Assembly: GCF_020991125.1 (NCBI RefSeq)
Contig: NZ_CP087715.1
Location: 3,401,001-3,465,000, forward strand
Reading direction: 5' to 3'
Length of the DNA stretch: 64,000 nucleotides
DNA from: Microbulbifer celer
GTDB taxonomy: Bacteria; Pseudomonadota; Gammaproteobacteria; Pseudomonadales; Cellvibrionaceae
The notes under the pieces were generated by a model, which had not been told where the DNA came from, searched no databases, and worked only from the letters and a program-made list of their open reading frames with translations. The position numbers and the translations under genes were made by a program. Shown here piece after piece: positions 17,210 through 57,099 of this stretch (within the stretch, counting starts at the first letter, position 1; every line of letters starts with the position of its first letter).

Positions 17210-17320
17210 GGCCGGGCACTGGGGGCGGGTTTTCAGGACCGCTGTGAATACATCCATGTAAGCTGCGGCGCAAACATCCTGTTTGCGACGCTCCTGAAAA
17301 CCCGCCCCCAGCACCCGGCC
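17210..17320 (+). repeat. Palindromic element, copy A (tkt-epd gap)
   Basis: A 111-bp element: left arm 17210-17238 and right arm 17292-17320 pair over 29 nt with two mismatches, enclosing 53 nt. Inside are hairpin 1 (TACAT-CC-ATGTA) and hairpin 2 (GCAAACA-TCC-TGTTTGC). It is flanked by GTGGC on the left and TTCG on the right, as in other copies. It lies between tkt and epd and would be transcribed, in antisense sense, in a tkt-epd message, so it may attenuate or process it. Confidence 0.9.
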
Positions 17321-17382
17321 TTCGATTCTGACTGCTGCGCTACGCCTCAAATATCGTAAGCAGCACAGCAGTCAGAGTTTCA

Positions 17383-19383
17383 TTACTTCAGCAGTCCTTC
17401 AACCGCTTCCGCAACTTTCTCGGCAGTGATGCCGAAGTGCTTCATCAGGTCACCGGCCGGGGCAGATTCACCGAAGGTGTCCATGCCGACGATGGCGCCG
17501 TCGAAGCCGACGAACTTGTACCAGTAGTCCTTGTGACCGGCTTCCACCGCGACGCGGGCGCGCACGTTGGAAGGCAGTACGGATTCACGGTAATCCGCAG
17601 GCTGGGCGGCGAAGGCTTCGGCGCAGGGCATGGAGACCACGCGCACTTTGCGGCCGGACAGTTGTTCGGCAGCGGTAGTGGCGAGCTCTACTTCGGAGCC
17701 GGTGGCGATGATGATGGCTTCCGGTTCGCCGTCGCAGTCGCGCAGCACGTAGCCGCCCTTCTCGACGTTGGCCAGTTGCTCGTCGGTGCGCGGCTGCGGG
17801 GCAAGACCCTGGCGGCTGAAGATCAGCGCGCTGGGGCCGTCGCTGCGGGAGACGGCCATTTTCCAGCTCACGGCAGATTCGGTGGCGTCACAGGGGCGCC
17901 AGGTCTGCAGATTCGGGGTAGCGCGCAACGCGGTGAGCTGCTCTACCGGCTGGTGGGTAGGACCGTCTTCGCCGAGGCCGATGGAGTCGTGGGTGTAGAC
18001 GAATACGACTTTCTGTTTCATGAGCGAAGCCATACGCACGGCGTTACGGGCGTATTCCATGAACATCAGGAAGGTTGCGCCGTAAGGTACGAAGCCGCCG
18101 TGCAGGGCGATGCCGTTCATGATGGCGCTCATGCCGAATTCACGTACGCCGTAGTAGACGTAGTTACCAGAGGCGTCGTCGGCGCTCACGCCTTTGGCAC
18201 CGGACCAGATGGTGAGGTTGGAGCCGGCCAGGTCGGCGGAGCCGCCGAGGAATTCCGGCAACAGCGGACCGAAGGCGTTCAAGGTGTTCTGGCTGGCCTT
18301 ACGCGAGGCCACTTTCTCGCCGTCGGCCTGGCACTGTTTGATGTACTCGTCGGCCTTGGCGAGGAAGTCTGCGGGCAGTTCGCCCTTCATGCGGCGTACA
18401 AACTCTTCGGCGAGTTCCGGGTACGCCTCTTTATAGTCTTCGAAGATGTCGTTCCACTCGTCTTCCTGCTCGGAACCTTTAACGCGCGCGTCCCAGGCGT
18501 GGTACAGGTCTTCGGGAATGACGAACGGTTCGTGCTTCCAGCCCAGGGTCTCGCGTACCAGGGCGATTTCGTCGTCGCCCAGTGGTGCACCGTGACACTC
18601 TTCGCGGCCCTGCTTGTTGGGGGAGCCGAAGCCGATCACGGTCTTGCAGCAGATAATGGTGGGCCTGGACGTTTCCGCGCGGGCTTCTTCGATCGCGGCC
18701 TTGATCGCCTGCGGATCGTGGCCGTCCACATTGGAGATCACGTGCCAGCCGTAGGATTCAAAGCGCTTGGGCGTGTCGTCGGTGAACCAGCCTTCGACTT
18801 CACCGTCGATGGAGATGCCGTTGTCGTCGTAGAACGCGACCAGCTTGCCCAGACCCAGGGTGCCCGCCAGGGAGCAGGCTTCGTGGGAGATGCCTTCCAT
18901 CAGGCAGCCGTCACCCAGGAAGCAGTAAGTGTGGTGGTCCACCAGCTCGTAGCCTTCGCGGTTGAACTGAGCGGCGAGGACTTTCTCGGCCAGCGCAAAG
19001 CCCACGGCGTTGGTGATGCCCTGGCCCAATGGGCCGGTGGTAGTCTCTACACCAGGGGCATAGCCGTACTCGGGATGGCCCGGGGTTTTGGAGTGCAGTT
19101 GGCGGAAGTTCTGCAGCTCGTGGATGGACAGGTCATAACCTGTCAGGTGCAGCAGGGAATACAGCAGCATGGAACCGTGACCGTTGGAGAGCACGAAACG
19201 GTCGCGATCCGCCCACTCGGGGTTGGCGGGATTGTGCTTGAGGTAGTCGTTCCACAGCACTTCGGCAATATCAGCCATCCCCATGGGCGCGCCGGGGTGG
19301 CCGCTCTTGGCTTTCTGGACCGCGTCCATAGACAGGGCGCGAATGGCATTGGCCTTTTCTGTGCGAGAAGGATTAGAAGACAT
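17383..19383 (-). CDS. tkt: Transketolase
   Basis: A 666-residue full-length transketolase of the non-oxidative pentose phosphate pathway, transferring two-carbon units with thiamine diphosphate. Visible are [20 protein letters not shown] at the N-terminus, the thiamine diphosphate motif [12 protein letters not shown] (about residue 155), the central pyrimidine domain with [16 protein letters not shown], and the C-terminal domain from about 540. The ATG at 19383 gives the usual family start ([16 protein letters not shown]); an ATG eight codons upstream is possible. It leads a minus-strand unit with epd and diverges from the ArsR-methyltransferase regulator gene; two related palindromes lie in the shared promoter region. 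Confidence 0.95.
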
Positions 19384-19612
19384 AGTGGGCTCTCGGTTTG
19401 GAATCATCAGTTCTCAGATGCGCTGCGGGTCCCGGCTCTGGTGGCCAGCTTGCCGCGGCAACCCATTCCCTGCGCGACCTGACGGCCGGGGTAAATGGGG
19501 TGCGTATTTTCCCGTAAACCACCGACGCCTGCAAAGGCCGGGTGGCCAAATACTGCCCTTCTGCGAAACATTTTCCCAATACACCTACCTGGAACGAATT
19601 GGTTTCAACTGC

Positions 19613-19652
19613 ATCAAAGTTTTTCAATGAAGCTGCATCAAAAAACTTTGAT
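19613..19652. promoter_or_regulatory. Tandem operator candidates in the tkt/regulator divergent promoter
   Basis: Two related 16-bp sites lie 24 bp apart: 19613-19628 (ATCAAAGTTTTTCAAT) and 19637-19652 (ATCAAAAAACTTTGAT). The second is a perfect ATCAAA-N4-TTTGAT palindrome; on the minus strand it shares ATCAAAGTTTTT with the first. Both are preceded by CTGC as direct repeats. The second site lies just upstream of a possible -10 box (TAAAAT, 19658-19663) for the regulator gene at 19684. They are the natural binding sites for that regulator, and could also affect tkt. Confidence 0.6.
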
Positions 19653-19683
19653 ATAGGTAAAATCCACTGCTAGACTCCGCTCC

Positions 19684-20673
19684 ATGCTTGAATCCAGCCA
19701 ATCCTCATCACGGTCCGCCCGCAGCCCGGAGCAGAACCCGGAATCCCGCGCCAGCGCGCAGATTCCCCAGCTGGCGGCGACCCTGAAGGCCGCCGGCGAC
19801 CCGTTGCGGCTGGAGATCCTGCGCCTGTTGAGCCAGGACTCATACAGCGTGCTGGAGCTGTGCCGTATCTTCGACCTGCGCCAGCCGGCGCTGTCCCATC
19901 ACCTGAAGGTGCTGTCCCAGGCGGGGCTGGTGAGCAAGCGGCGCGAGGGCAACAACCTGTTTTACCGGCGCACGGCCAGCAGCGAGCTGTTACAGCAACT
20001 GTTCTCCGGCCTGGACCAGCTGCCGCTGACGCAAGAGCGCGCCGCAACCGTGGCCCAGATCGCTGCCGAACGCGCAGAGGCTTCGCGCCGGTTCTTCGCC
20101 GATTACGGCAACCGCTTCCGCGAACAGCAGGAGTTGATCGCCAGTTATAACGTGTACGGTCCTCAGGTGGCACAGCTGTTGAAACCGGGGCGTCACGCGC
20201 TGGAGGTGGGCCCCGGTGAGGGGGAGTTTCTGGCGGAGCTGGCGAGCCGTTTTGGTACGGTGACGGCGCTGGATCTGTCGCAGACGATGCTGGAGCGGGC
20301 GCAGGAATTTGCGGACGAGCAGGGTCTGCAGAATATCGAGTTTGTGTGCGACGACACCCGCGCGGCGGCATCCCGCCCGGAGAGTGCGGACTGCATTGTG
20401 GTGAATATGGTGTTGCACCACACGCCGGATCCGGCACAGATTTTTCACGATCTGCAGAAGTCGTTGAAGGTGGGTGGTCAGTTGTTGATTACCGAGTTGC
20501 ACGATCACAAGCAGGATTGGGCCCGGGATGCCTGTGGTGATCTCTGGCTGGGCTTTTCGCCTCAGCAGTTGATTGCGTGGGCGGCCGACGCCGGTTTGCA
20601 GAGAGGCCGTAGTGAGCACAGTGCTTTGCGCAATGGTTTCCAAGTGCAGATTCAGGAGTTTGTTAAGGGGTGA
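19684..20673 (+). CDS. ArsR-family HTH fused to SAM-dependent methyltransferase (SahR-like regulator)
   Basis: A 329-residue fusion. Residues about 25-105 form an ArsR/SmtB winged helix (AAGDPLRLEILRLLSQDSYS, QPALSHHLKVLSQAGLV) without the Cys metal-binding motif. Residues about 150-325 form a class I methyltransferase fold (motif I ALEVGPGEGEFLAEL, post-I VTALDLSQTML, then NMVLHHTPDP). This architecture occurs in SahR-type regulators that sense S-adenosylhomocysteine through the methyltransferase-like domain, and here it stands directly upstream of metK, ahcY and metF, the SAM cycle itself. It probably represses the cycle and itself through the paired sites at 19613-19652. I cannot tell whether the methyltransferase domain is still catalytic. 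Confidence 0.85.
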   Translation: MLESSQSSSRSARSPEQNPESRASAQIPQLAATLKAAGDPLRLEILRLLSQDSYSVLELCRIFDLRQPALSHHLKVLSQAGLVSKRREGNNLFYRRTASSELLQQLFSGLDQLPLTQERAATVAQIAAERAEASRRFFADYGNRFREQQELIASYNVYGPQVAQLLKPGRHALEVGPGEGEFLAELASRFGTVTALDLSQTMLERAQEFADEQGLQNIEFVCDDTRAAASRPESADCIVVNMVLHHTPDPAQIFHDLQKSLKVGGQLLITELHDHKQDWARDACGDLWLGFSPQQLIAWAADAGLQRGRSEHSALRNGFQVQIQEFVKG

Positions 20674-20719
20674 TCGGTTGTGGACTCCGTAGCCTTGGAG
20701 CTCTGTTTTAGCTTCGGGC

Positions 20720-20844
20720 GCCAGATCACCGGGTGCAACTTTTCGGAACCGAGCTAGGCGCCCCCCTGTGAACCCATCCCTGGGCGCTGCGGCGCAAACA
20801 TCCTGTTTGCGACGCTTCCGAAAAGTTGCACCCGGTGCTCTGGC
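20720..20844 (+). repeat. Palindromic element, copy B (regulator-metK gap)
   Basis: Arms 20720-20748 and 20816-20844 (29 nt each, one mismatch) enclose 67 nt, 14 more than copies A, D and E. The extra bases (AGCTAGGCGCCCCC) are inserted just inside the left arm. Hairpin 1 is CCCAT-CC-CTGGG and hairpin 2 is GCAAACA-TCC-TGTTTGC. Confidence 0.9.
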
Positions 20845-20915
20845 TTAACGAATGACCACTGGACTTTGTAAGCAACTTTCGCCAACAACGACGAAGCAAT
20901 GAAGTACAAATCGAA

Positions 20916-21027
20916 GGCCGAGAGGCCGGGGAAAGGTTTCAAAAGCGTCGGCGACAGGGACGTCGCCGCCGCAGCGTACAGGGATGTATTTACAGCGGTT
21001 TTGAAACCTTTCACCGGCCTCTTGGCC
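20916..21027 (-). repeat. Palindromic element, copy C (regulator-metK gap, opposite orientation)
   Basis: Arms 20916-20944 and 20999-21027 (29 nt, two mismatches) enclose 54 nt. Read on the minus strand, hairpin 1 is TACAT-CC-CTGTA and hairpin 2 is GGCGACGTCCCTGTCGCC. It lies 71 bp from copy B in inverted orientation, so the 451-base gap before metK is mostly repeat. Confidence 0.9.
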
Positions 21028-21124
21028 GCCACCCAAACAGGAACAATGCTCCGGATTAAGAAACTACGGAGTGCTAAACAAGATTTACGCCAACCGCCAG
21101 CTGCGGAAAAAGGAGAAGCTCACA

Positions 21125-22345
<1,221 letters not shown>

Positions 22346-22419
22346 ACAGGTTGGGCAGGCCACAAGTCCGCCCAGCATTCGCCAGGCAAAACCCGAGCGA
22401 CAACCCAGAGATTTAGGAC

Positions 22420-23805
22420 ATGAACCAGATGAGCACCGAATTCAAAGACTTTAAAGTAGCCGACATCAGCCTCGCCGATTGGGGCCGCAAAGAAATCGAA
22501 ATCGCCGAAGGCGAAATGCCGGCCCTGATTACCCTGCGCGAGAAATACCGCGCAGAGCAGCCGCTGGCCGGCGCCCGCATTATGGGCTGTATCCACATGA
22601 CCATTCAGACCGCAGTACTGATCGAAACCCTGGTCGCCCTGGGCGCGGAAGTACGCTGGTCTTCGTGCAATATTTTCTCCACCCAGGATCACGCTGCCGC
22701 GGCCATCGCCGCCAGCGGTGTACCGGTATTCGCCTGGAAAGGCGAAACCGAAGAGGAATACGAGTGGTGCCTGGAGCGCACCATCGGCGCGGACGTGGCC
22801 GGCTGGCAGCCGAACCTGATCCTCGACGACGGCGGTGACCTCACCGAGCTGCTGCACCGCAAATATCCGGAGCTGCTGGACAAGTGTCACGGTATCAGTG
22901 AAGAAACCACCACCGGCGTGCATCGCCTGCAGGACATGCTGAAAGCTGGCACCCTGAAAGTACCGGCGATCAACGTCAACGACGCTGTCACCAAGAGCAA
23001 GAACGACAACAAATACGGCTGTCGCCACAGCCTGAACGACGCCATCAAGCGCGGCACCGACCACCTGCTGGCCGGCAAGAAAGCGCTGGTGATCGGCTAC
23101 GGCGATGTGGGTAAAGGCTCTGCCGCCTCCCTGCGCCAGGAAGGCATGATCGTGAAAGTCACCGAAGTGGATCCGATCTGTGCGATGCAGGCCTGCATGG
23201 ACGGCTTCGAGCTGGTTTCCCCGTATATCAACGGCGTCAACGACGGCAGCGAATCCTGCATCAACAAGGCACTGCTGGCGAACACCGACCTGATTGTGAC
23301 CACCACCGGCAACGTGAATGTGTGCGACGCGAATATGCTGAAGGCGCTCAAGTCCGGCGCTGTGGTTTCCAACATCGGGCACTTCGATAACGAGATCGAC
23401 ACCGCCTTCATGCGTGAAAACTGGGAATGGCAGGAAGTGAAACCCCAGGTGCACAAGATCGTGCGCAACGCCGACAACAACGATCACCTGTTGCTGCTGT
23501 CCGAAGGACGCCTGGTCAACCTGGGCAATGCCACCGGCCACCCGAGCCGCATCATGGACGGTTCCTTTGCCAACCAGGTGCTGGCACAGATCCACCTGTA
23601 CAAGGAAAAGTTTGCCGAACTACCGGCGGACCAGAAAGTTTCCGCGCTGTACGTAAAAGTACTGCCGAAACACCTGGACGAAGAAGTGGCCAAGTACATG
23701 GTGGAAGGTTTCGGCGGTGTAATCACCCGCATGACCGAAGATCAGGCCAACTATATTGGCGTATCCGTAGACGGCCCTTACAAGCCGGAAAGTTACAAGT
23801 ATTAA
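22420..23805 (+). CDS. ahcY: S-adenosylhomocysteinase
   Basis: A 461-residue S-adenosylhomocysteine hydrolase that splits S-adenosylhomocysteine into homocysteine and adenosine with a tightly bound NAD. Visible are [16 protein letters not shown], the NAD site [19 protein letters not shown] (about residue 226), [11 protein letters not shown], and the conserved C-terminus [14 protein letters not shown] 22420 is preceded by AGGA at short spacing, and ATG 22429 is an alternative. It lies 74 bases after metK and removes the inhibitory product of SAM-dependent methylation. Confidence 0.97.
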
Positions 23806-23816
23806 GCCTTTGGTTA

Positions 23817-23889
23817 CTGGATGCCGGCCTGCGCCGGCATGACGATGGAATAGATTGATTCGTCACCCCGGACCTGATCCGGGATCCAG
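23817..23889. repeat. REP-like inverted pair before metF
   Basis: Two related units in inverted orientation: 23817-23845 (starting CTGGATGCCGG, ending CCGGCATGACGA) and 23861-23889 (starting TCGTCACCCCGG, ending CCGGGATCCAG). Each can fold on itself and the two can also pair. Units of this CTGGAT-CCGG / CCGG-TGACGA type are widespread intergenic repeats in proteobacteria. It sits between ahcY and metF and overlaps the extended, probably untranslated metF frame. Confidence 0.8.
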
Positions 23890-23914
23890 AAAGACCGAGG
23901 GAATGGAACAGAAC

Positions 23915-24748
23915 ATGAGTCAATTACGTATCAGCTTTGAGTTTTTCCCACCCAAGACCGAACAGGGTCGGGAAAAGCTGTACAACACCCGCGAACAATT
24001 GCAGGCGTTCAACCCGGCGTTCTTCTCGCTGACCTATGGTGCCGGCGGTACCACCCGCGACACCACGGCGAACATCGTCACCGGCCTGCGTAAGGATGGT
24101 ATTTCCATCGCCCCGCACCTGTCCTTCGGCGGCGACAATGAAGAGATCGTGCTCGGATTGCTGGAGCGCTACAAAGAGGCCGGCGTGGATCGTATCGTCG
24201 CGCTGCGTGGCGACATTCCCTCCGGCATGGGCTCCGTGGCACAACTGGTGTACGCCAACGAACTGGTGGCGTTTATCCGCCGCCATACTGGTGACCATTT
24301 CCAGCTGGAGGTTGCCGCCTACCCGGAAATCCATCCGGAAGCGGAAAGCTATGACGACGATATCCGCTTTTTGAAAGGCAAGTTCGAGGCCGGCGCCGAC
24401 AGTGGCCTGACCCAATACTTCTACAATCCGGATGCGTACTTTTACTTTATGGATCAGTGCGAGAAGGCGGGCATCAACAAGCCCATCTACCCGGGCATCA
24501 TGCCGATCACCAACTTCGCCAACCTGGCGCGCTTCTCCCGCAACTGCGGCGCGGAAATTCCGCGTTGGCTGAAGTACCGCATGGAGAGCTATCGCGATCC
24601 GGAAGATGTGAAAAAGCTGGGGCTGGAAGTAGTCACCGACCTGTGTGAGACCCTGCTGGACGGTGGCGCGCCCGGCCTGCACTTTTACACCATGAACCAG
24701 GTTGAGCCTACCAGCAGTATTCTGAAGGCCCTGGACATTAATGGCTGA
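23915..24748 (+). CDS. metF: 5,10-methylenetetrahydrofolate reductase
   Basis: A 277-residue MetF-type flavoprotein of the TIM-barrel family that reduces methylenetetrahydrofolate to methyltetrahydrofolate for methionine synthesis. Motifs include RISFEFFPPKTEQGREKL at the N-terminus, LTYGAGGTTRDTT, VALRGDIPSGMG (about residue 95), QYFYNPDAYFYF and PGIMPITNF. The frame opens at 23855 inside a repeat; ATG 23903 has no room for a ribosome binding site, so ATG 23915, with GGA eight bases before it, is preferred. It completes the methyl cycle with metK and ahcY upstream and ends at a bidirectional terminator. Confidence 0.95.
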   Translation: MSQLRISFEFFPPKTEQGREKLYNTREQLQAFNPAFFSLTYGAGGTTRDTTANIVTGLRKDGISIAPHLSFGGDNEEIVLGLLERYKEAGVDRIVALRGDIPSGMGSVAQLVYANELVAFIRRHTGDHFQLEVAAYPEIHPEAESYDDDIRFLKGKFEAGADSGLTQYFYNPDAYFYFMDQCEKAGINKPIYPGIMPITNFANLARFSRNCGAEIPRWLKYRMESYRDPEDVKKLGLEVVTDLCETLLDGGAPGLHFYTMNQVEPTSSILKALDING

Positions 24749-24770
24749 GAGCGTACTCTTGTAATACCAC

Positions 24771-24800
24771 AAAAAAGCGCGGATCAGTCCGCGCTTTTTT
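24771..24800. terminator. Bidirectional terminator between metF and the OmpA-like gene
   Basis: AAAAAAGCGCGGA-TCAG-TCCGCGCTTTTTT is a perfect 13-bp stem with A and T tracts on either side, so it can end transcription both ways. Its loop contains the stop codon of the minus-strand OmpA-like gene. Confidence 0.9.
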
Positions 24801-25395
24801 GTGGGTATGATTTCGATTTGCTCATTCGCACATTGATCGGCTTGCCGTTGTAATTCATCACCCGCACCACCAGTCTCCGATTCTGCGCCCGCCCCAGTTC
24901 ACTGTCATTGTCGGCAATGGGATCCGAATCTCCATACCCCTGCGCCTCTACCCGCTCGGCACTGATACCCCGCTCGAGCAGGAATTGTTTGACCCAATTG
25001 GCACGCCACTGGGACAGCTTCTGGTTTTTTGCTGAATCTCCCGCATTGTCCGTATGCCCCTCAACGGCGATTTTCAGGTCCGGGAAATCCCGCATGATAA
25101 CGAGCAGCGCCTCTACATCATCGAGAGTATTCATCTTCGGTGCAAAGCCACCGGGTTCGAAATCAACATCCAGAATGAATGTGTCACTCTGCCGCTGTTG
25201 CCCCATCAGAAAACGCACCATGGCATCGCCAAATGGCGCCGCGTCGCGAGCGGCCTGCTCTCTGTCGCCACCGGTGACCAGGTCGCGCGGATCCAGGGTG
25301 TACTTCTTGGTCGGATCAGGGCAACCCGTTAACAGCAACGCAGCAAAGACTGTGGAAACGATCGCAATATGGGGTCGCGGGGGCAAAACAGGCAT
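24784..25395 (-). CDS. OmpA/MotB-domain lipoprotein
   Basis: A 203-residue lipoprotein with lipobox ALLLTGC near residue 24 and a C-terminal OmpA-like peptidoglycan-binding domain (about residues 85-195: KIAVEGHTDNAGDSAKNQKL, RVEAQGYGDSDPIADN, AQNRRLVV). It probably anchors the outer membrane to the cell wall like Pal or YiaD. The ATG at 25395 gives the signal and follows AGAGGAAG; a longer frame to 25518 adds no signal. It is a single gene, diverging from an exported protein gene, and its stop lies in the loop of the terminator shared with metF. Confidence 0.85.
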   Translation of the reverse strand: MPVLPPRPHIAIVSTVFAALLLTGCPDPTKKYTLDPRDLVTGGDREQAARDAAPFGDAMVRFLMGQQRQSDTFILDVDFEPGGFAPKMNTLDDVEALLVIMRDFPDLKIAVEGHTDNAGDSAKNQKLSQWRANWVKQFLLERGISAERVEAQGYGDSDPIADNDSELGRAQNRRLVVRVMNYNGKPINVRMSKSKSYPQKSAD

Positions 25396-25567
25396 AGAGC
25401 CGCTTCCTCTTGGTGAATGATAGAAGGCGGTTCGCGCATTGTAGGATCGCCCGATGCCAATCCGTAGCCTAATCCTGAGCGAGACGCAGAGCACGGTTTC
25501 TGAGATGATCACGGGCACCCTAACCTTTAACGCACCCCCTAACCTTGCCTACGCCGGGGAGATCGAC

Positions 25568-28150: not shown

Positions 28151-28254
28151 CGATAGATCCTGAATGGGGACGGAGTTGCGTGAAGGGTAATACAGGTGGC
28201 GGGGAGATTGTAGGTGCGCAGCGATTCCGATGGGCTCTGTCCCGCTTCCGTGGC

Positions 28255-28365
28255 GGTGGGGCACTGGGTATCCGTTTTCAAAACCGCTGTGAACCCATCC
28301 ATGGGAGCTGCGGCGCAAACATCCTGTTTGCGACGCTTTTGAAAACGGATACCCAGCACCCCACC
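28255..28365 (+). repeat. Palindromic element, copy D (RND-rsmE gap)
   Basis: Arms 28255-28283 and 28337-28365 (29 nt, two mismatches at the same inner position as in copy A) enclose 53 nt. Hairpin 1 is CCCAT-CC-ATGGG and hairpin 2 GCAAACA-TCC-TGTTTGC. The arm sequence around GTATCCGTTTTC is unlike other copies, yet both arms match each other. Confidence 0.9.
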
Positions 28366-28406
28366 TTAAGTCCACATAAATCACTTCGTAAGAAACCATA
28401 CGCGAA

Positions 28407-28494
28407 GCGCCCTTATCGGGATGAGGTGATTCGATGCGGAACGATTGCCGATGAGGTTGTGGAGTATCGGATTACCTCATCCCGATAAGGGCGC
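28407..28494. repeat. Long inverted repeat, different family
   Basis: A perfect 21-bp inverted repeat, GCGCCCTTATCGGGATGAGGT at 28407-28427 less its last base and its complement at 28474-28494, encloses 46 nt that can pair further but imperfectly. It lies 41 bp from copy D, downstream of the RND gene, and shares no sequence with the seven-copy family. It may act as a terminator-like stem or be another mobile palindrome. Confidence 0.8.
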
Positions 28495-28533
28495 GCCACC
28501 GGGCCCGAATAAAACCCGGCGGCGGCTAACCGA

Positions 28534-46530: not shown

Positions 46531-46554
46531 CTACGCGGAGAAGTAAGAAGCGAA

Positions 46555-46665
46555 GGCAGAGCAGCGGGTACGGGTTTTCAGGAGCGTCGCAAACAGGATG
46601 TTTGCGCCGCAACGCCCAGGGATGGGTTCACAGTGGTCCTGAAAACCCGTACCCGCTGCTCTGCC
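46555..46665 (-). repeat. Palindromic element, copy E (S15 hydrolase-M1 peptidase gap)
   Basis: Arms 46555-46583 and 46637-46665 are perfectly complementary over 29 nt and enclose 53 nt. Read on the minus strand it has hairpin 1 CCCAT-CC-CTGGG and hairpin 2 GCAAACA-TCC-TGTTTGC. It starts 24 bases after the hydrolase stop, where a terminator would be expected. Confidence 0.9.
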
Positions 46666-46810
46666 GCCACCAAGCGATTCGACGCCCCCATGGCACCCAA
46701 CTCAACCCAGCGCACAACCCCACCTCCCTGTCCTATCGCCCCTGCAGCTGACCACCCAGTTACCGCTACAATAGGGCAAACCTCTAACCAGAAATTCCAA
46801 ACCAACCACT

Positions 46811-49558: not shown

Positions 49559-49577
49559 AACGCTGACCCATAAAAGC

Positions 49578-49606
49578 AAAAACGGCAGCCATTGGCTGCC
49601 GTTTTT
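49578..49606. terminator. Bidirectional terminator between M1 peptidase and HdeD genes
   Basis: AAAAACGGCAGCC-ATT-GGCTGCCGTTTTT is a perfect stem with A and T tracts on both sides, placed 19 bases after the M1 stop and 25 bases before the HdeD stop. Confidence 0.9.
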
Positions 49607-49630
49607 AGTTTCATTTCTTTTTTTATTACC

Positions 49631-50212
49631 TCACGATTTCTTTAATCTCCGCAGCCGGAACGCCAACCAAACGAGAATCAGCCCGAACAGAATCGCATAA
49701 CCGCCGATCAGCCACAGCAGCGCCAACGCACCCGCCCCAGGCTTCATCAACAGCACCAGACCAAAAATCACCGACAGCACACCGGCACAGATCAGCAACC
49801 ATTCGTGGTCGATTTCCTTGCGCAGGCGGATGGCGCCGATGATTTCAAAGATTCCCCGCACCAGGGCCCAGGCGCCAATGAAGACCACCAGTACCAGGCC
49901 GGTAACCTGAGGATAAAAGAAGGTGACGATACCGGCGGCGATACCGGTGATGCCCACAAACAGCAGCCACCACAGGGAGGACTTGCTCGCCTGTCCGCGC
50001 CCCTGAATTGCACCGTAAATCGCGACCACACCATCCACCAGGGTATAGGCGCCGAACAGGATGATCAGGCTGAGCAGGGTTATGCCCGGCCACACAAACG
50101 TAAGCACACCAAAGAGAATCGCAAATAGCCCCCGCAACAGGGCAACCCACCAATTGTCCGCCATCAATCGGAGCATGGGGCGGGTGGAAAGATTGATCAT
50201 CTGATCGGACAT
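49631..50212 (-). CDS. HdeD-family membrane protein
   Basis: A 193-residue integral membrane protein of the HdeD (DUF308) family, with six hydrophobic segments and paired helices such as WWVALLRGLFAILFGVLTFVWP and LWWLLFVGITGIAAGIVTFFYP. The E. coli family member protects against acid at high cell density. Here the role is unknown. ATG 50212 (MSDQMINLSTRP) is preferred to a frame opening at 50290. It lies 80 bases after the LytTR response-regulator gene on the same strand and may be regulated by it. Confidence 0.85.
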   Translation of the reverse strand: MSDQMINLSTRPMLRLMADNWWVALLRGLFAILFGVLTFVWPGITLLSLIILFGAYTLVDGVVAIYGAIQGRGQASKSSLWWLLFVGITGIAAGIVTFFYPQVTGLVLVVFIGAWALVRGIFEIIGAIRLRKEIDHEWLLICAGVLSVIFGLVLLMKPGAGALALLWLIGGYAILFGLILVWLAFRLRRLKKS

Positions 50213-50292
50213 GGGCACTCCCGGCTTGATAAAGCTGCTGCTAAAACAATGGCACCGGGAGTTATAGGGTAGAGAGGAAAAACAGACCAACT

Positions 50293-51120
50293 TTAAATGA
50301 AATGCTGGACCTTGTTTTTATAACTGCGGCTCATTTTGAGCCGTTCACCGTTATTCAGTACCAGGTGATATTCCCCGTTGATATGCGCGCAGATCTCACG
50401 CACCTGCTGTAGATTGACGATGGTGGAGCGGTGGATGCGCTGGAACACTTTCGGATCCAGCTGCTGCTCCAGCTCTTTCATGGTGATTCGCATCACATGG
50501 GTTTCCCCATTGGCATGGACACACATATAGTCGCCGGCGGCATCGATCCAGTCGATCTCCCGCGCCGGCACCAGGGTGATTTTGCCGGAATCCTTGATCG
50601 CGAGCTTGTCCGGGTAGCGGCTCCCGCCCAGTTCGCCGGAGACGAGCTTCTCCTCCAGTGCTGCGGGCGTTTCCTGGGTCAGGTCCGCCACCGCTTCCAG
50701 CAACTGATCCCGCTGCGCGGCGATGTCCTCGCTACCGAGTTTGTCGCGCACGCGCTCTAGCGCCAGCGTCAGACGATCCTCTTCTATGGGCTTGAGTACA
50801 TAGTCCACTGCGTTGACTTCAAAGGCCTCTACCGCGTACTGATCGTAAGCGGTAACAAATACGATCTGCGGCAGTTCATCGCGGGGCAGCAGCTGAACCA
50901 GTTCCAGGCCACTGATCCCCGGCATCTGAATATCCAGAAATACCACATCCGGATGCAGGGCGAGGATCTGATCCCGCGCTTCGCGGCCATTGCTGCACTC
51001 GGCAATCACCTCCACACCGCCTTCGGTATCCCCCAGGGCTTCAAGGCGCAGGCGCAGGCCGCGACGGGCCAGGGGTTCGTCATCGACAATCAGGGTTCTG
51101 AGTGGTGATTGCGCAGTCAT
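50293..51120 (-). CDS. LytTR-family response regulator
   Basis: A 275-residue response regulator. The receiver (residues 1-125) has the acidic pair in LIVDDEPLARR, the phosphoacceptor Asp63 in VVFLDIQMPG and the conserved Lys in VDYVLKPIEED. A linker leads to a C-terminal LytTR DNA-binding domain (about 175-275: IHRSTIVNLQQVREI, GERLKMSRSYKNKV), as in AlgR/BtsR. It is the second gene of a pair with the LytS-like kinase, 30 bases upstream; the kinase should phosphorylate Asp63. Which genes it controls is unknown; hdeD follows directly. Confidence 0.92.
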   Translation of the reverse strand: MTAQSPLRTLIVDDEPLARRGLRLRLEALGDTEGGVEVIAECSNGREARDQILALHPDVVFLDIQMPGISGLELVQLLPRDELPQIVFVTAYDQYAVEAFEVNAVDYVLKPIEEDRLTLALERVRDKLGSEDIAAQRDQLLEAVADLTQETPAALEEKLVSGELGGSRYPDKLAIKDSGKITLVPAREIDWIDAAGDYMCVHANGETHVMRITMKELEQQLDPKVFQRIHRSTIVNLQQVREICAHINGEYHLVLNNGERLKMSRSYKNKVQHFI

Positions 51121-51150
51121 GTAGGCGCCTCTTGGTCGATATCAGTGATG

Positions 51151-52239
51151 TTATTCGGTTTCAAACGGAATGCGCAGATGTACCGACAGTCCGCCGCCGG
51201 AACGATTGCTGAAGCGGGTTTTCTGCTCGCTACCGTACAGTGCGCGCAGGCGCTCAATGGTATTGCGCACACCGACGCCACTGCCACTGCCCAATCGCGC
51301 CAGATCCGCCTCTGGCACGCCGGGGCCATTGTCCGAGACTTCAATCAGCAGCTCGCCGGCAAATACCCGCGCCTTGATCACAATCTCTCCACCCCACTCC
51401 CGCTGGGAGATGCCGTATTTGATCGCATTCTCCACCAAAGGTTGCAACAGCAGACTGGGCACCAGTGCCGTGGCCGCCTCCCCCTCCAGATCCACGTTGA
51501 CCTGCAGGCGGTCGGCAAAACGTACCCGCTCAATATCCAGGTACAGTTTCAGCGCCTCGACCTCTTTGGCGAGGGTGACCTTCTGCATGGGGTCGTTATC
51601 CAGAGAATGACGCAGGAACTGCGACAGGCGGGTGACCATGCTGTTGGCGGTCTTGCCATCCTGCTCCAGAATCAGGGTCGATATGGCATTCAGGGTATTG
51701 AACAGAAAGTGGGGGTTGAGCTGGTAGCGCAGCATTTTGAGCTGCGACTGATGGGCAATGGATTCCGCCTTCAGCGCCTTTTCCTGTTGCAACAGCGACG
51801 CCTGATAGTACTTGATGCCGTAGTAGAGCGCCGTCCAGGTCATGTAGATCAGGAACGAATAGGAGAACCAGTACACCGCCATCACCGCCGGGTGTTCATC
51901 GCTTTCCTTACCGTACAACCACAGGGAACCGCCGAACTTGATCCCTGCCCACACCACTGCGGCGACAATCACCACCCCCAGGGAGCCGAACAGGCGATTC
52001 CCCGCCGGCTTGTCCCACAGGCGCTGGAAGCAGCGGTGCATCACCTCGGTCAGGGCCACACCGGACGCCGTCGCCACCGCAATATAGCCGGTGTGCAGCC
52101 AGTGGTTTGCCACCCAGAAGAAGCTGCCCACAAACGTCAGCAGTGTATAGCCGCCCCAGCCGCTGCATTGCAGCGCCCAGTACTGCCAGCGCTGTGACGC
52201 CAGCTTTTCGGACAGCCAGTTGAAAACAGAAATACCCAT
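51151..52239 (-). CDS. LytS/AlgZ-like histidine kinase
   Basis: A 362-residue membrane-bound histidine kinase of the His_kinase (LytS/YehU/AlgZ) type. Four hydrophobic segments cover residues about 20-145. The phosphoacceptor is His177 in LRYQLNPHFLFNTLNAI, and the ATP-binding part has LLLQPLVENAIKYGI and the G-box VSDNGPGVPE, then GVGVRNTIERLRALYG. There is no large extracytoplasmic sensor domain, so it may sense membrane state or a small ligand via the helices. It forms an operon with the LytTR regulator downstream and diverges from the EVE-domain gene. Confidence 0.9.
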   Translation of the reverse strand: MGISVFNWLSEKLASQRWQYWALQCSGWGGYTLLTFVGSFFWVANHWLHTGYIAVATASGVALTEVMHRCFQRLWDKPAGNRLFGSLGVVIVAAVVWAGIKFGGSLWLYGKESDEHPAVMAVYWFSYSFLIYMTWTALYYGIKYYQASLLQQEKALKAESIAHQSQLKMLRYQLNPHFLFNTLNAISTLILEQDGKTANSMVTRLSQFLRHSLDNDPMQKVTLAKEVEALKLYLDIERVRFADRLQVNVDLEGEAATALVPSLLLQPLVENAIKYGISQREWGGEIVIKARVFAGELLIEVSDNGPGVPEADLARLGSGSGVGVRNTIERLRALYGSEQKTRFSNRSGGGLSVHLRIPFETE

Positions 52240-52466
52240 TCAGTTCCTATAACATCCCGTTACCGCCGCTGCGGTAGCCGCGAACTGTAAGTGGGCGCCC
52301 ACTGGCAGGTTGCCAGGAAAAGCGCACGCCAATTTGAGAAAATAGACTAATCCACCACCGGCCCCGGCGAAATACCGCCAAACGCGTCAATCGGACGGAC
52401 TGCCGCATGCCACAGGGATTGGCGCTGGCCCCGGGGAAAAACCTGCCTCCACAACCAGGAACACCC

Positions 52467-52928
52467 ATGAACCACTGGCTTTTCAAATCCGAACCGGACG
52501 AATACAGCATCGACGACCTGAAGGCAGAACCCCGGCGGACGGGGCGCTGGGATGGTATCCGCAACTACCAGGCACGCAACTTTCTCCGCGACAAAGTAGC
52601 TGTGGGGGATGGAGTGCTGTTCTACCACAGTGCCTGCAAGATTCCCGCGGTGGTGGGCGCCGCCAAAGTGGTGCGTGCCGCCTATCCAGACCCGGCCCAG
52701 TTCGACCCCGAGTCAAAGTACTTCGACCCCAAGGCAACCCGGGACAAGCCGCGCTGGTTTTGCGTGGATATCCAGTGGCAGAGCCAGTTCGCACACCCAG
52801 TGCCCCTCAAGGTGATCAAGCAGGACCCGGCACTGGAGGAGATGGTGTTGGTGCGGCAGGGACGGCTGTCAATTCAGCCGGTGACCGAGCAGGAGTGGCG
52901 GCGGATCGAAAAACTCGGTAACGGATGA
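52467..52928 (+). CDS. EVE-domain protein (PUA-like)
   Basis: A 153-residue single EVE domain (PUA/YTH-like fold) with the family start NHWLFKSEPDEYSIDDL, the aromatic pocket parts WDGIRNYQARNFLRD and the segment KPRWFCVDIQW. EVE domains bind modified bases in RNA or DNA; the small stand-alone bacterial proteins have unclear function, though related domains appear in restriction systems. ATG 52467 follows AGGA; a frame start at 52407 adds an unlikely Pro-rich leader. It diverges from the kinase gene and converges on the DUF3094 gene. Confidence 0.85.
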   Translation: MNHWLFKSEPDEYSIDDLKAEPRRTGRWDGIRNYQARNFLRDKVAVGDGVLFYHSACKIPAVVGAAKVVRAAYPDPAQFDPESKYFDPKATRDKPRWFCVDIQWQSQFAHPVPLKVIKQDPALEEMVLVRQGRLSIQPVTEQEWRRIEKLGNG

Positions 52929-52948
52929 GCCCACTCCTCCGCCCTTTG

Positions 52949-53152
52949 TCACACCACGCCTTTGGTACCGGCGATTACCAGGCTGAGCAGAGAGAGCGCA
53001 GTCAGTACCACCAGAATCACCGCAAGTAACAGGAACGGCCGGAAGGGCTTACGTTCGACGTCGTTGTGGCCGCTTTTCAGGTAGGCATCCACCTTGGCCT
53101 GATCCTCCTCGGAGAGCTTTTTCTCTGGTATGAACGGGTCTTTGTCAGACAT
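52949..53152 (-). CDS. DUF3094 small membrane protein
   Basis: A 67-residue protein with a charged N-terminus (LSEEDQAKVDAYLKSGHNDVERKPFRP) and one C-terminal membrane helix (about residues 40-62). This matches DUF3094, a small family of Pseudomonas-type and related gammaproteobacteria; function unknown. It converges on the EVE gene with 20 bases between stops and is followed upstream on its strand by the terminator of the acyl-CoA dehydrogenase gene. Confidence 0.75.
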   Translation of the reverse strand: MSDKDPFIPEKKLSEEDQAKVDAYLKSGHNDVERKPFRPFLLLAVILVVLTALSLLSLVIAGTKGVV

Positions 53153-53211
53153 GACTGTGCGGACCTCGATTTTTATTGTGTTACCCCGAGTCTAGAAGAA
53201 TCCCCTCAATG

Positions 53212-53235
53212 AAAAAAGCCCCGCAGTGCGGGGCT
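53212..53235 (-). terminator. Rho-independent terminator after the acyl-CoA dehydrogenase gene
   Basis: On the minus strand AGCCCCG-CACTG-CGGGGCT is followed by TTTTTT, 24 bases past the stop codon. Confidence 0.85.
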
Positions 53236-53258
53236 GATCGGCAGAGCTGGTTTCAGGC

Positions 53259-55040
53259 TTAGAACAACTCTTCTTCCAGATCCATCAGGGTCTCACTGCC
53301 CGCGAGTACGCTGTTGGCCAGTGCGGTGGCCTGGGGCAGCAGGCGCGCGAAGAAGAAGCGCGCAGTCTTGACCTGGCTGCGGTAGAAATCTTCCGTCTCC
53401 GCCTGCGGGCCGGCAACGCTCGCCACCTTGGCCCACATAAAGGCATAGGCCACGTAACCGAACAAGTGCAGGTATTCCACCGACGCCGCACCCGGTGCAT
53501 TGGGGTCGGTTTTGGAGGCCTCGATCACCGCGGCGGTCACATCTTTCAGTCGCTGCAGCTCGGTGGTCAGCGGGCCGATAAACTCCGCCAGCGCTTCGTT
53601 ATCGGCATTGGCATCGATAAAAGCCTGCACGTCTGCCGCGAACAGATCAAAGAAGGCGCCGCCATTGGCCACGGTCTTGCGACCGATCAGGTCCAGTGCC
53701 TGGATGCCGTTGGTGCCTTCGTAGATCTGGGTAATACGCACATCGCGTACCAGCTGTTCCTGACCCCACTCGCGGATATAGCCGTGGCCACCGAACACCT
53801 GCTGGCCAAGTACGGTGCACTCGAGCCCTTTATCGGTGAAGAAGGCTTTGGCAACCGGCGTGAGCAGCGCCACCATGGCTTCCGCGTGTTTCTTCTCTTC
53901 ACCCTCGCCAAACTTGGCAATATCCAGCCACTTGGCCACGTAGGTAGACAGCGCACGGCCGCCGCCGATCAGGGCTTTCTGGGTCAGCAACATGCGGCGC
54001 ACGTCCGGATGCACGAGAATTGGGTCGGCGGCTTTTTCGGGCTGCTTGGCGCCGGAGGGCGAGCGGCTCTGAACGCGGTCGCGGGCGTACTCGATGGCAC
54101 TCTGATAGGAGCGCTCGGACGCGCCGAGGCCCTGGATGCCCACGCCCAGGCGCTCGTAGTTCATCATGGTGAACATGGCCGCGAGCCCCTTGTTCACCTC
54201 ACCCACCAGCCAGCCCTTGGCGCCGTCGAAATTCATCGCACAGGTAGCGGAGGCCTTGATGCCCATCTTGTGCTCGATGGAGCCACAGCTGACCGCATTG
54301 CGCTCACCCAGGCTGCCGTCTTCATTGACTATGATCTTCGGCACCAGGAACAGGGAGATGCCTTTTGGCCCCTTGGGCGCGTCCGGCAGCTTGGCCAGGA
54401 CCAGATGGATGATGTTTTCCGACAGATCGTGCTCACCGCCGGTGATAAAGATCTTGGAACCGGTAATGCTGTAGCTGCCATCCTCCTGTGGCTCCGCCTT
54501 GGTGCGGATGATGCCCAGGTCGGTACCGGCGTGGGGCTCGGTCAGGTCCATGGCGCCGGCCCAGCTACCTTCATACATTTTCGGCAGGTATTTCTGTTTC
54601 AGCTCCTCAGTGGCGTGGGCGTCGATCGCCAGGCAGGCACCGTTGGTCAGTACCGGATACAGGGCGAAAGAAATATTCGCCGCGCAGATCATCTCTTCCA
54701 CCTGGGCGCCCAGGGTCTTGGGCATGCCCATGCCGCCGTATTCCGGGTTGCCTACCAGCGCCCCCCAACCGCCTTCGCAATAGGTGGCGTAGGCTTCCGG
54801 GAAACCTTTTGGCGTGGTCACGACCCCGTCGCTCCAGTGGCAACCTTCTTCATCGCCGCTGCGGTTGATCGGGTCGAGGGTGTTGGCGGCCAGCTTGGCC
54901 ATCTCTTCGAGAATGGCATCGGCGGTTTCGCGATCGGCGGTTTCCGCCAGTGCCGGCAGGCGTGCCCACAGCTTGTCGGCCTCGAATACCTCGTGCAGCA
55001 GGAAGTTCATCTCGCGCAGTGGCGCCTTGTACTCGGCCAT
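53259..55040 (-). CDS. Acyl-CoA dehydrogenase, long type with C-terminal domain
   Basis: A 593-residue FAD enzyme of the acyl-CoA dehydrogenase family with the extra C-terminal helical domain typical of the long 590-600-residue subgroup. Visible are EGGWGALVGNPEYGGMGMPK, MDLTEPHAGTDLGIIRTKA, KIFITGGEHD, QVFGGHGYIREWGQEQLVRD and the catalytic-region QIYEGTNGIQALDLIGRK. It takes the first oxidation step of beta-oxidation or a related thioester (relatives include DmdC-type enzymes); the substrate is not sure. A PsrA-type palindrome lies 54 bases upstream of the ATG, consistent with fatty-acid control. Single gene. Confidence 0.92.
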   Translation of the reverse strand: MAEYKAPLREMNFLLHEVFEADKLWARLPALAETADRETADAILEEMAKLAANTLDPINRSGDEEGCHWSDGVVTTPKGFPEAYATYCEGGWGALVGNPEYGGMGMPKTLGAQVEEMICAANISFALYPVLTNGACLAIDAHATEELKQKYLPKMYEGSWAGAMDLTEPHAGTDLGIIRTKAEPQEDGSYSITGSKIFITGGEHDLSENIIHLVLAKLPDAPKGPKGISLFLVPKIIVNEDGSLGERNAVSCGSIEHKMGIKASATCAMNFDGAKGWLVGEVNKGLAAMFTMMNYERLGVGIQGLGASERSYQSAIEYARDRVQSRSPSGAKQPEKAADPILVHPDVRRMLLTQKALIGGGRALSTYVAKWLDIAKFGEGEEKKHAEAMVALLTPVAKAFFTDKGLECTVLGQQVFGGHGYIREWGQEQLVRDVRITQIYEGTNGIQALDLIGRKTVANGGAFFDLFAADVQAFIDANADNEALAEFIGPLTTELQRLKDVTAAVIEASKTDPNAPGAASVEYLHLFGYVAYAFMWAKVASVAGPQAETEDFYRSQVKTARFFFARLLPQATALANSVLAGSETLMDLEEELF

Positions 55041-55093
55041 GGTGTCACCTCTCCCAGTCGGTTCAGATGGAATAATTAGCGTTCAATCGTTTG

Positions 55094-55113
55094 TTTCAAA
55101 CACATGTTTGAAA
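55094..55113. promoter_or_regulatory. PsrA-type fatty-acid-responsive operator
   Basis: TTTCAAAC-ACAT-GTTTGAAA is a perfect 8-bp inverted repeat matching the PsrA box (CAAAC-N2-4-GTTTG). A further GTTTGAAAT half-site lies at 55119-55127. It sits 54-73 bases upstream of the acyl-CoA dehydrogenase start, a promoter position. PsrA is a TetR-family repressor of beta-oxidation genes released by long-chain fatty acids or acyl-CoA in pseudomonads and relatives. Confidence 0.7.
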
Positions 55114-55201
55114 TATCTGTTTGAAATTTAGGGCCAAGGGACGCCCAAGTCAAGACGCCAGCCCTCGTACGGCCAGCAGGTCAGTCAGGGAATTGCATGT
55201 G

Positions 55202-55227
55202 CCAGCGGCCCACCGGTGGGCCGCTGG
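55202..55227. terminator. Perfect palindrome downstream of bioD
   Basis: CCAGCGGCCC-ACCGGT-GGGCCGCTGG folds on itself, 30 bases after the bioD stop on the minus strand. No T tract follows in that direction, so termination by this hairpin alone is uncertain. Confidence 0.5.
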
Positions 55228-55256
55228 TAAGAATCGCTAACCGTGCTCGGGGCACA

Positions 55257-55958
55257 TTAGTCAGCAGAAGATAGCAGCGGGGAGAGGTCCAGGTGGGCGG
55301 CGCCGTTGCGGTAGTCGCCGGATTCATCGAAGGGCATCACGCCCAGGCAGGGGGCCGGTAGCAGCGCGCGCAAGGTCATCAGGTTTTCATCGCTGCGGGG
55401 CATCTCGCGTTGCGGGCCGCGCACGAAATTGGCCACCCAGCCCGCCAGAGGCAGGCCGTCGTGTCGGATCGCTTCGGCGGTCAGCAGCGCGTGATTGATA
55501 CAACCCAGCTCCATCCCCACCACCAGGATCACCGGTAGCTCCAACGCCCGCGGCAGATCCGACAGGAAGGCACGGGGTGCCAGCGGTACCCGCCAGCCGC
55601 CAGCGCCCTCGATCAGTACAAACTCGGCCGCACCACTCATTACGCCACGACAGATACCCGCCAGGCGCGACGGGTCCGGTCGCCTACCCGCTTCCATGGC
55701 GGCAATATGCGGGGCAATGGCCGGCTCCAGCGCGATGGGATTCACCTGCTCGTAGGGCATCTCCACGGTCATCGCCTGTTGCAGGGTCAGCGCATCGCTG
55801 TTGCGCAGTCCCGCATCGGTCTGCTCACAACCGGAGGCCACCGGCTTTACCGCCGCGGTCTGCAGCCCCTGCTCGCCGGCCGCTGCCAGCAGCGCGGCAG
55901 AAACGTAAGTTTTACCCACTTCGGTATTGGTACCGGTGACAAAAAATGTACGGGTCAC
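55257..55958 (-). CDS. bioD: Dethiobiotin synthetase
   Basis: A 233-residue ATP-dependent carboxylase-type enzyme that forms the ureido ring of dethiobiotin, the penultimate step of biotin synthesis. The P-loop start FFVTGTNTEVGKTYVS (residues 5-20), the substrate site VKPVASGCEQ and the later EGAGGWRVPL and LVVGMELGCINHALL fit BioD. In many relatives bioD ends a bioBFHCD cluster; here no other bio gene is in the window upstream, as the next gene (ldt) is divergent, so it appears as a single gene. I saw no BirA box near its start. Confidence 0.92.
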   Translation of the reverse strand: MTRTFFVTGTNTEVGKTYVSAALLAAAGEQGLQTAAVKPVASGCEQTDAGLRNSDALTLQQAMTVEMPYEQVNPIALEPAIAPHIAAMEAGRRPDPSRLAGICRGVMSGAAEFVLIEGAGGWRVPLAPRAFLSDLPRALELPVILVVGMELGCINHALLTAEAIRHDGLPLAGWVANFVRGPQREMPRSDENLMTLRALLPAPCLGVMPFDESGDYRNGAAHLDLSPLLSSAD

Positions 55959-56299
55959 GGAATTTCCCCCTTCTCTTTGGAGTCTTGTTTTCGGGTCTTT
56001 TTATTGACGCCTCTTTAAACATAGACTACGTGGTGATAAATTAACCATATAGCGCACTATTCACACAACCCGGACCACTAAACGTTGTCGAGGTTTAGGA
56101 TAATCGCCTAATAATTGCCCCGACTGCGGTTTGGGTTGGCAGCAAAGGACAGCGCTGTCATAACGCTTTTGCGCCTTTGCATCGCACCGCGCAACCACAT
56201 TGCTCTCCGCCAGTTGGCTGAGATGTGGAAGTCCCAAGGTGGTGCGACAGTGCAGACGCTGACTTCGCCCCGGTCATATAAACAAAATCGACGAGAGCT
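55959..56299. other. Divergent intergenic region between bioD and the L,D-transpeptidase gene
   Basis: These 341 bases hold both promoters. The only clear symmetry is a 6-bp inverted repeat CTAAAC-N9-GTTTAG at 56078-56098, which is too short to assign. No RNA gene or repeat of the palindromic family is present. Confidence 0.5.
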
Positions 56300-56785
56300 A
56301 TGCGAACGATCATTCTAATACTTGCCCTGCTGGCCCCGGCCTTTGCCGTGGCCAAAATCAAACCGGTCGACGAGGTGGTGGTCTACAAGTCCAAGCACCT
56401 GATGCAGCTGAAGCGCAATGGCCGTGTTGTGAAGAGCTATAAGGTGGTATTCGGGCAAAACCCGGTTGGCCACAAACAGTACGAGGGCGACCAGCGCACC
56501 CCCGAGGGCCGCTATACCCTGAACTGGAAGAAGAAGAACAGCACCTACTACCGCGCGATCCATATCTCCTATCCCAATGCGCAGGACCGCGCACGGGCGC
56601 GCAAAATGGGCCGAAGCCCCGGTGGTCTGATCATGATCCACGGCCAGAAGCCTCAGTGGAAAAATATCGAGAAGTACCTGACGCGGATGAACTGGACCAA
56701 TGGCTGTATTGCGGTGACCAATCCGGAGATGGACGAGATCTGGGCGATGGTGGATACCGGTACGCCGATTGAGATTTTTCCGTAA
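56300..56785 (+). CDS. L,D-transpeptidase (YkuD domain)
   Basis: A 161-residue exported protein: signal peptide about residues 1-19 (MRTIILILALLAPAFAVA), then a YkuD catalytic domain. The active-site segment is HGQKPQW (His114) and NGCIAVTN with Cys136, close to the YkuD HxnxxxxxxxxxxxxxxxSxGC layout in a YafK-like variant. It would crosslink peptidoglycan or attach or release lipoproteins in the periplasm. A signal for other domains is absent. It diverges from bioD; downstream are two palindromic elements (copies F and G), and dnaB converges. Confidence 0.85.
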   Translation: MRTIILILALLAPAFAVAKIKPVDEVVVYKSKHLMQLKRNGRVVKSYKVVFGQNPVGHKQYEGDQRTPEGRYTLNWKKKNSTYYRAIHISYPNAQDRARARKMGRSPGGLIMIHGQKPQWKNIEKYLTRMNWTNGCIAVTNPEMDEIWAMVDTGTPIEIFP

Positions 56786-56849
56786 GAACTGCTTCGTAAA
56801 AACCACAGGGTATCCAGAATATCCAGAAGGTCAGATGCGAAGGCAGCGA

Positions 56850-56947
56850 TACCGGGCAGCCCTTTGCGAGACCTTCTAAAACAGGGACGTTTTAGAAGAG
56901 CCCCCATGGATGGGTTCACGGCGTGTCTCGCAAAGGGCTGCCCGGTA
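56850..56947 (-). repeat. Palindromic element, copy F (divergent variant)
   Basis: Perfect 23-bp arms (56850-56872 and 56925-56947) enclose 52 nt. On the minus strand hairpin 1 is CCCAT-CC-ATGGG and hairpin 2 is a longer stem (CTTCTAAAA) closed by the loop CGTCCCTG. The linker between arm and hairpins is shorter than in other copies, and the arm sequence is unrelated, but the loop motifs and the flanks (AGTGGCG and CCTTCGCATC) match the family. Confidence 0.85.
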
Positions 56948-56987
56948 GCGGTGACGCCACTGAGGGTATTTAAGCTCCCTGAGTGGC

Positions 56988-57099
56988 GGCAGAGCACCGG
57001 GTGCGGGTTTTCAGGACCGCTGTATATACATCCCTGTACGCTGCGGCGGCGACGTCCCTGTCGCCGACGCTCCTGAAAACCCGCACCCGGTGCTCTGCC
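56988..57099 (+). repeat. Palindromic element, copy G (ldt-dnaB gap)
   Basis: Arms 56988-57016 and 57071-57099 are perfectly complementary over 29 nt and enclose 54 nt, with hairpin 1 TACAT-CC-CTGTA and hairpin 2 GGCGACGTCCCTGTCGCC, the same as copy C. It lies 40 bp from copy F in inverted orientation; together the pair is bounded by an outer inverted repeat at 56830-56846 and 57095-57111. Confidence 0.9.

Follow-up and report, generated by a model that had tools for sequence, protein, structure and literature searches.

Sponges of the CsrB/RsmY/RsmZ type are dedicated small RNA genes, and the CsrB repeat has the short form CAGGAYG. Among dispersed repeats, REP and REPIN sequences are described, in the accessible part of one account, as palindromes of 20–40 bp with an unpaired GTAG or CGTC tag (PMC3733652). 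The Rfam family TwoAYGGAY (RF01731) is entered in a 2010 table as probably an RNA that is not cis-regulatory, with occurrences, as far as that table goes, in the human gut, Gammaproteobacteria and Clostridiales (Weinberg 2010, PMC2864571), and the available text of another paper proposes that it binds CsrA (PMC4333381). Here we analyse a 64 kb stretch of Microbulbifer celer (positions 3,401,001 to 3,465,000 of the 4,346,001 bp contig NZ_CP087715.1; hereafter the window) and the intergenic hairpin repeat that it carries, of which the genome holds at least 158 copies. With confidence about evenly divided, we take this element to be a non-autonomous hairpin repeat, REP-like but large, that spreads in trans and whose TwoAYGGAY-type tip is probably bound by CsrA upon transcription.

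The first-pass annotation of the window had reported seven copies (A to G) of a palindrome with nested hairpins, and all seven are present where it placed them and fold as it described. A search of the 64 kb with a model, R1, whose alignment included A, C, D, E and G and left out B and F, was run with filters off. On their model strand these copies alone reached E 9e-24 or lower, and R1 also matches the seven places on the opposite strand, less strongly, as palindromes do. The seven pairs of arms align over 29–32 nt with 0–3 mismatches, and with flanks the copies have folding energies of −71 to −92 kcal/mol. The shorter arms of 23 nt ascribed to one divergent copy were not borne out: F aligns over 29 nt with 2 mismatches and represents a second subfamily. 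The features are listed below, R denoting the strand that folds.

17202–17328, R strand −: copy A, subfamily I (R1 match at E 5e-34 on the + strand, R being its complement)
20712–20852, R strand −: copy B, subfamily I, with a 14–16 nt insert at the base of hairpin B (R1 match at E 9e-24)
20908–21035, R strand +: copy C, subfamily I, inverted partner of B (R1 match at E 5e-29)
28247–28373, R strand −: copy D, subfamily I (R1 match at E 2e-32)
28250–28256, + strand: end box GTGGCGG of copy D, read from the sequence
28294–28305, − strand: hairpin B of copy D with R-strand loop CATGGATG, read from the sequence
28315–28331, − strand: hairpin A of copy D with R-strand loop CAGGATG, read from the sequence
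28399–28502, − strand (the model-match strand, not the R strand): related palindrome with a different tip (weak R1 match at E 7e-8)
46547–46673, R strand +: copy E, subfamily I (R1 match at E 2e-33)
56834–56963, R strand +: copy F, subfamily II (R1 match at E 7e-29)
56980–57107, R strand −: copy G, subfamily I, inverted partner of F (R1 match at E 4e-33)

The count of seven is correct for the window, and a genome-wide search raised it to at least 158, made up of at least 150 model matches (the best 150 of 2,275 candidates were scored, the weakest at E 1e-16) and 8 more from a script. The core pattern occurs 74 times in the genome, compared to 0 times for a reversed control. We read 149 copies in detail, one of the 150 listed lacking enough flank. 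Outside these 149 the two-loop motif was found 8 times in 436 kb, 4 times in the further copies from the script, 3 times in places that resemble copies and once in a gene. The 150 listed copies are unevenly spread (23, 14, 7, 6, 6, 13, 17, 14, 17 and 33 per successive tenth of the contig) and form 134 groups, 118 of them single and 16 of them inverted pairs spaced 17–84 bp apart, like B/C and F/G; the copies are kin, and these counts are not counts of independent events. No bias with respect to the replication strand was detected (p 0.61, taking the contig start as the origin).

Each unit of 110–130 bp consists of end boxes, two arms, each about 30 nt long, and a tip in which two small hairpins stand side by side; on the forward strand the order is GTGGCGG, arm, hairpin, hairpin, arm, CCTTCG. 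The flanks previously noted as shared prove to be the ends of the unit, but they are not invariant: B is without both exact boxes, D ends in CCTTAA and F begins with GTGGCGT. At the expected place in the 149 copies, GTGGCG is exact in 119 and CCTTC in 109, with CTT in 34 more and both boxes in 92. The sequence beyond the end boxes shows little conservation, the exception being a weak [AG]CTTCG that 34 of 119 copies carry some 20 nt further out. NEMIS, ERIC and like repeats are similar in being intergenic palindromes of 100–150 bp; to our knowledge they lack the tip with two GGA loops, and we set them apart by description rather than by sequence. The T-shaped terminal repeat of the adeno-associated virus type shares the plan alone, an outer stem with two small inner hairpins, and is an analogy rather than kin.

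The pairing of the arms is conserved and their sequence is free, in line with the first-pass annotation: arms vary freely among relatives and yet pair. Position tables were made for two subfamilies of 58 and 62 copies, excluding one poor copy and 28 of the 149, many of which contain an insert. Of the 1560 cells that these 120 copies give for the 13 inner pairs, 1551 are Watson-Crick, several positions showing all four pair types. In an alignment of related copies from which the structure itself was derived, changes on both sides occur in 28 of 37 pairs and covariation is 0.61, compared to 0.19 for shuffled and at most 0.11 for slid controls; it lies so far above both that chance is excluded. 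Helix 2 is paired in 98.3% of cells across genera with widely differing stems, in an alignment fitted to the structure and with best-match copies chosen.

Wobble pairs in the stem identify the strand that folds. The 149 copies contain 199 G.U wobbles on R (A.C on the forward strand) and 20 A.C wobbles on R. In the uncorrected alignment the figures are 208 and 62, with 42 of the 62 lying in or beyond the end box. In the 120 tabulated copies, the outer positions alone give a ratio of 158 to 9, which becomes 80 to 9 once two tandem-wobble positions are set aside (these ranges were picked after the table had been seen, and 199:20 is the unselected figure). A bias in the same direction, 26 G.U on R versus 9, was found in 37 copies from other genera. 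Because G.U is in excess on R, the reverse (R) strand is the strand that folds and carries the information. R is the reverse of the orientation previously labelled forward, which is the less informative strand. The nearly wobble-free, sequence-free inner stem raises the question of how a palindrome stays paired; the near-absence of wobble on both its strands might reflect templated correction of the palindrome, which is a guess on our part.

Read on R, the tip presents two GGA loops. Both loops have the form CA(N)GGANG in 129 of the 149 copies, and 140 satisfy a two-hairpin rule that itself requires GGA. In all 140, hairpin B is CANGGATG. Hairpin A has the context CA..G in 125 of the 140, among them 62 with the shorter CAGGAYG or a similar form lacking the N, and GAGGGAYC in the other 15; the main loop types are CAGGGACG (40), CAGGATG (37), CAGGACG (22), CAGGGATG (21) and GAGGGAYC (15). 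The Rsm/CsrA motif is printed as CANGGANG in the accessible portion of one source (PMC6849547), and the element indeed places GGA in a hairpin loop within this context. The paired GGA hairpin loops resemble those of CsrB, RsmY and RsmZ, as far as the available text on these sponges shows (PMC4333381); the element differs in occurring in both orientations. On this sequence likeness, the R-strand tip is probably bound by CsrA when it is transcribed.

The first-pass annotation knew of no named family with this plan; however, the R strand of some related copies matches TwoAYGGAY, with which the element has in common an outer stem enclosing two adjacent hairpins with CAUGGAUG-like loops. Two (A)YGGAY-type loops within one outer stem are present in 129 of 149 copies, the base before GGA often being a purine, so that the Y is not kept. 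At the curated Rfam score, which for RF01731 is a gathering cut-off of 43 bits, no family was found in the window, and the best RF01731 score in the genome is 32.3 bits. F and G, the window copies searched at a level as permissive as E 10, gave no RF01731 match. RF01731 was matched in 13 of 38 genomes at E 0.01, and the score passed the cut-off in 2; of the ten best RF01731 loci, 8 coincide with the element, all 8 on R. A permissive search of 13 loci from other genera matched 3 (41.9, 45.6, 41.3 and 35.1 bits), again all on R. The relatives of the element that exceed 43 bits are locus L308 (45.6) and genome G041 (43.5). A match above the cut-off in genome G039 was examined and rejected, as it is not this element.

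Given this resemblance the tip is not new, and the part for which no report was found is its occurrence as an abundant repeat with free arms. In M. celer the structure recurs at least 158 times, on arms that vary, whereas the TwoAYGGAY literature consulted does not call that family a repeat. No description of the present repeat was found in the literature searched, which lacked most subscription papers, and an exact text search for words of the element returned only papers with unrelated biomedical titles. Should our reading be correct, a candidate RNA family that has hardly been studied would have close relatives among the abundant dispersed repeats of Gammaproteobacteria, which would place hundreds of predicted CsrA sites in genomes beyond the known sponge RNAs.

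The element is found in 35 of 37 Microbulbifer genomes and in 4 of 21 others of the order (E 0.001). Order-wide, it occurs in 109 of 293 genomes, the own and same-genus genomes included, and in 52 of 119 genera (E 1e-4); in the rest of the class, all outside the order, 41 of 273 sampled genomes have it (E 1e-5). For scans that took in more than 40 genomes the filters were strict, and copy numbers in relatives are lower bounds, with the best 59, 11 or 12 matches per genome scored. Outside the genus, our reading of the tip covers 37 copies from the order and 7 from elsewhere in the class. The 37, best matches from 27 genomes of other genera, differ widely in their arms (14 are perfectly paired) and have the tip in common; all 7 of the others have two CA(N)GGANG loops. 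As for phages and plasmids, copy D gave no blastn match and no viral contig contained the exact core pattern, both probes addressing close versions of the element.

Comparison of orthologous gaps shows that pairing is maintained while the sequence changes in place, though not instantly. At the gap beside dnaB, complete copies are present in 11 of 30 loci. Genome G018 differs there from G021, G025 and G029, with which it shares a pair of copies, by one base pair changed on both sides (G-C versus A-T), and G001 likewise differs from G002 by one two-sided change, the remaining arm changes being single. Other species have different copies with unrelated arms in this gap. In the gap of copy E, 2 of the 18 loci scanned out of 27 (G000 and G001) carry copies, with unrelated arms; by eye, remnants are visible in G008 and G020 and a short hairpin with similar ends in G018. 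The gap of copy D contains the element in 4 of the 18 loci scanned out of 30, and orthologues of the palindrome beside it (28399–28502) show, by eye, several two-sided changes between species.

None of the 134 groups overlaps a gene called by our simple gene caller, so the copies are intergenic, as first described. They lie in 100 tandem, 27 convergent and 6 divergent gaps, with 1 undetermined; gaps of at least 60 bp in the window comprise 19 tandem, 8 convergent and 11 divergent ones, which indicates avoidance of divergent gaps. In tandem gaps, the single copies lie a median of 44–48 bp downstream of the preceding gene, and R runs along the genes in 53 of them versus 36 in the opposite direction (p 0.09). 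Since this orientation is near random, the plain message-processing role that the first-pass annotation had entertained is unsupported. A strand-neutral terminator, mRNA 3′-end stabiliser or RNase III site would agree with the position shortly downstream of stop codons and with the folding energies, and element-free relatives show, by eye, a short terminator-like hairpin at the place of D (loci L405–L408 and L410) or E (L388). Such a function would leave the conserved GGA loops, the conserved tip and the strand bias of the wobbles unexplained, and we consider it improbable.

The properties of the tip and stem do not depend on the direction of the neighbouring genes. The wobble bias is 33:3 in co-directional and 26:3 in opposite copies, two intact loops are present in 54 of 64 and 41 of 47, respectively, and score ranks do not differ between orientations (p 0.77). 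Host transcription was rejected as the source of the wobble bias, which is alike in both orientations. This independence is our strongest argument for selection on the element itself rather than on host transcription; such selection would seem to bear on how the element propagates or on a transcript that it produces itself. It also bears on the possibility that the host uses the copies as scattered RNA sites, with transcribed copies serving as a dispersed CsrB/RsmZ that titrates or recruits CsrA at numerous message 3′ ends. Both loops fit the longer CsrA motif or the shorter CAGGAYG, a CsrA-family gene is present in 36 of 38 genomes (one match in M. celer), CsrA binding has been put forward for TwoAYGGAY in the available text cited above, and the slight co-directional excess points the same way; yet loops and wobble bias are kept equally in opposite copies, and G018, with at least 59 copies, has no CsrA match. 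Overall, we regard host use of this kind as unlikely.

In the reading that we prefer, a REP-like hairpin repeat spread in trans, the R strand would fold when single-stranded, as DNA or RNA, its tip and ends would be recognised by a trans-acting factor, and copies would spread. A copy transcribed in the R direction could dock one CsrA dimer at its two loops. The arms would stay paired because folding is needed for the spread, and hairpin-templated correction of the stem, a guess, would perhaps help. The neighbours of the window copies are ordinary genes (GAPDH, transketolase, YkuD, DnaB and others), and no transposase was found among 19 distinct window proteins scanned, including the genes adjoining every copy, in agreement with the first-pass annotation. 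With no transposase-like neighbour among the proteins scanned, movement in trans, as suggested earlier, is the fitting form of mobility. None of the three gene gaps compared offered a clean empty site, and we infer mobility rather than observe it.

Further observations weigh against spread in trans or against the proposed kinship. The pair of copies in the dnaB gap is common to G018, G021, G025 and G029, so some copies are old. Direct repeats of at least 4 nt at the ends occur in 10 of 106 copies, compared to 6.1 expected from shuffled pairs, which does not show the target-site duplication of a miniature inverted-repeat transposable element (MITE) of a DDE transposon. The search for a trans-acting factor, made in 43 genomes for Y1_Tnp and not for other transposases, integrases or reverse transcriptases, found a copy within about 1.5 kb at 1 of 31 Y1_Tnp loci (the best match per genome plus the own gene), and no Y1_Tnp match in two copy-rich genomes, G012 and G022 (52 and 49 matches). 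The RF01731 link is weak, most matches being below the cut-off, and long hairpins of this kind also match eukaryotic miRNA and Ysr224 models below threshold, some with better E-values.

The Y1 results bear equally on whether the element is of the REP/REPIN type, moved by a RAYT (Y1 transposase). Intergenic position, high copy number, inverted dimers, placement near gene 3′ ends and a proposed mobility in trans are common to the element and to REP, REPIN and BIME sequences, as described in the accessible parts of two sources (PMC3733652, PMC8266576), and M. celer has one Y1_Tnp match. The element differs in its much greater length (110–130 bp, not 20–40), its composite tip and the absence of a GTAG or CGTC tag from its GTGGCG and CCTTC ends. 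The 7 kb around the own Y1 gene contain no copy and no repeat of such kind, and the 1 of 31 loci noted above does not amount to a RAYT gene flanked by repeats; together with the copy-rich genomes that lack a Y1_Tnp match, this leaves movement by a RAYT with little probability. A selfish hairpin propagated as a single strand is a doubtful alternative: its CsrA-type docking tip would be the recognition head, its free stem would be re-copied arm to arm at the DNA level, and hundreds of copies would spread by, and load, the CsrA network.

The distribution of csrA itself varies among relatives. Neither G018 nor G019, single-contig genomes rated complete, gave a CsrA-family match. Six genomes of the same genus (G003, G004, G006, G009, G010 and G014) have 5–19 csrA-like matches, a few of them broken or partial, with 19 in G010. 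Five of the six are poor in the element (1–11 copies) and G006 has 52; most copy-rich genomes carry one csrA. The csrA-rich genomes may represent one clade, and G007, G011 and G019 are element-poor without extra csrA. No copy was found beside the csrA paralogues in 20 loci of the element-poor species G003, G010 and G014.

The palindrome at 28399–28502 has ends similar to those of the element, near-perfect arms and another tip; it was the only end-boxed palindrome with a different tip in the M. celer sequence examined, and it has 5 matches in G001 and 1 in G002. Two kinds of insert recur within copies. At the base of hairpin B, the window copy at 20712–20852 and other copies carry an insert of 14–16 nt (GAGCTAGGCGCCCCCC), and at dnaB it is present in G021 and G027 and absent from the orthologous copies of relatives. 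For a second, GC-rich insert (GGCCGAAGGCGCC...), the M. celer sequence examined contains the first 13 letters at 7 places, and at 6 of them (positions 162929, 676042, 2380958, 2635713, 3244407 and 3554097) the insert lies inside a GGA loop of a copy, as though the loop served as a target.

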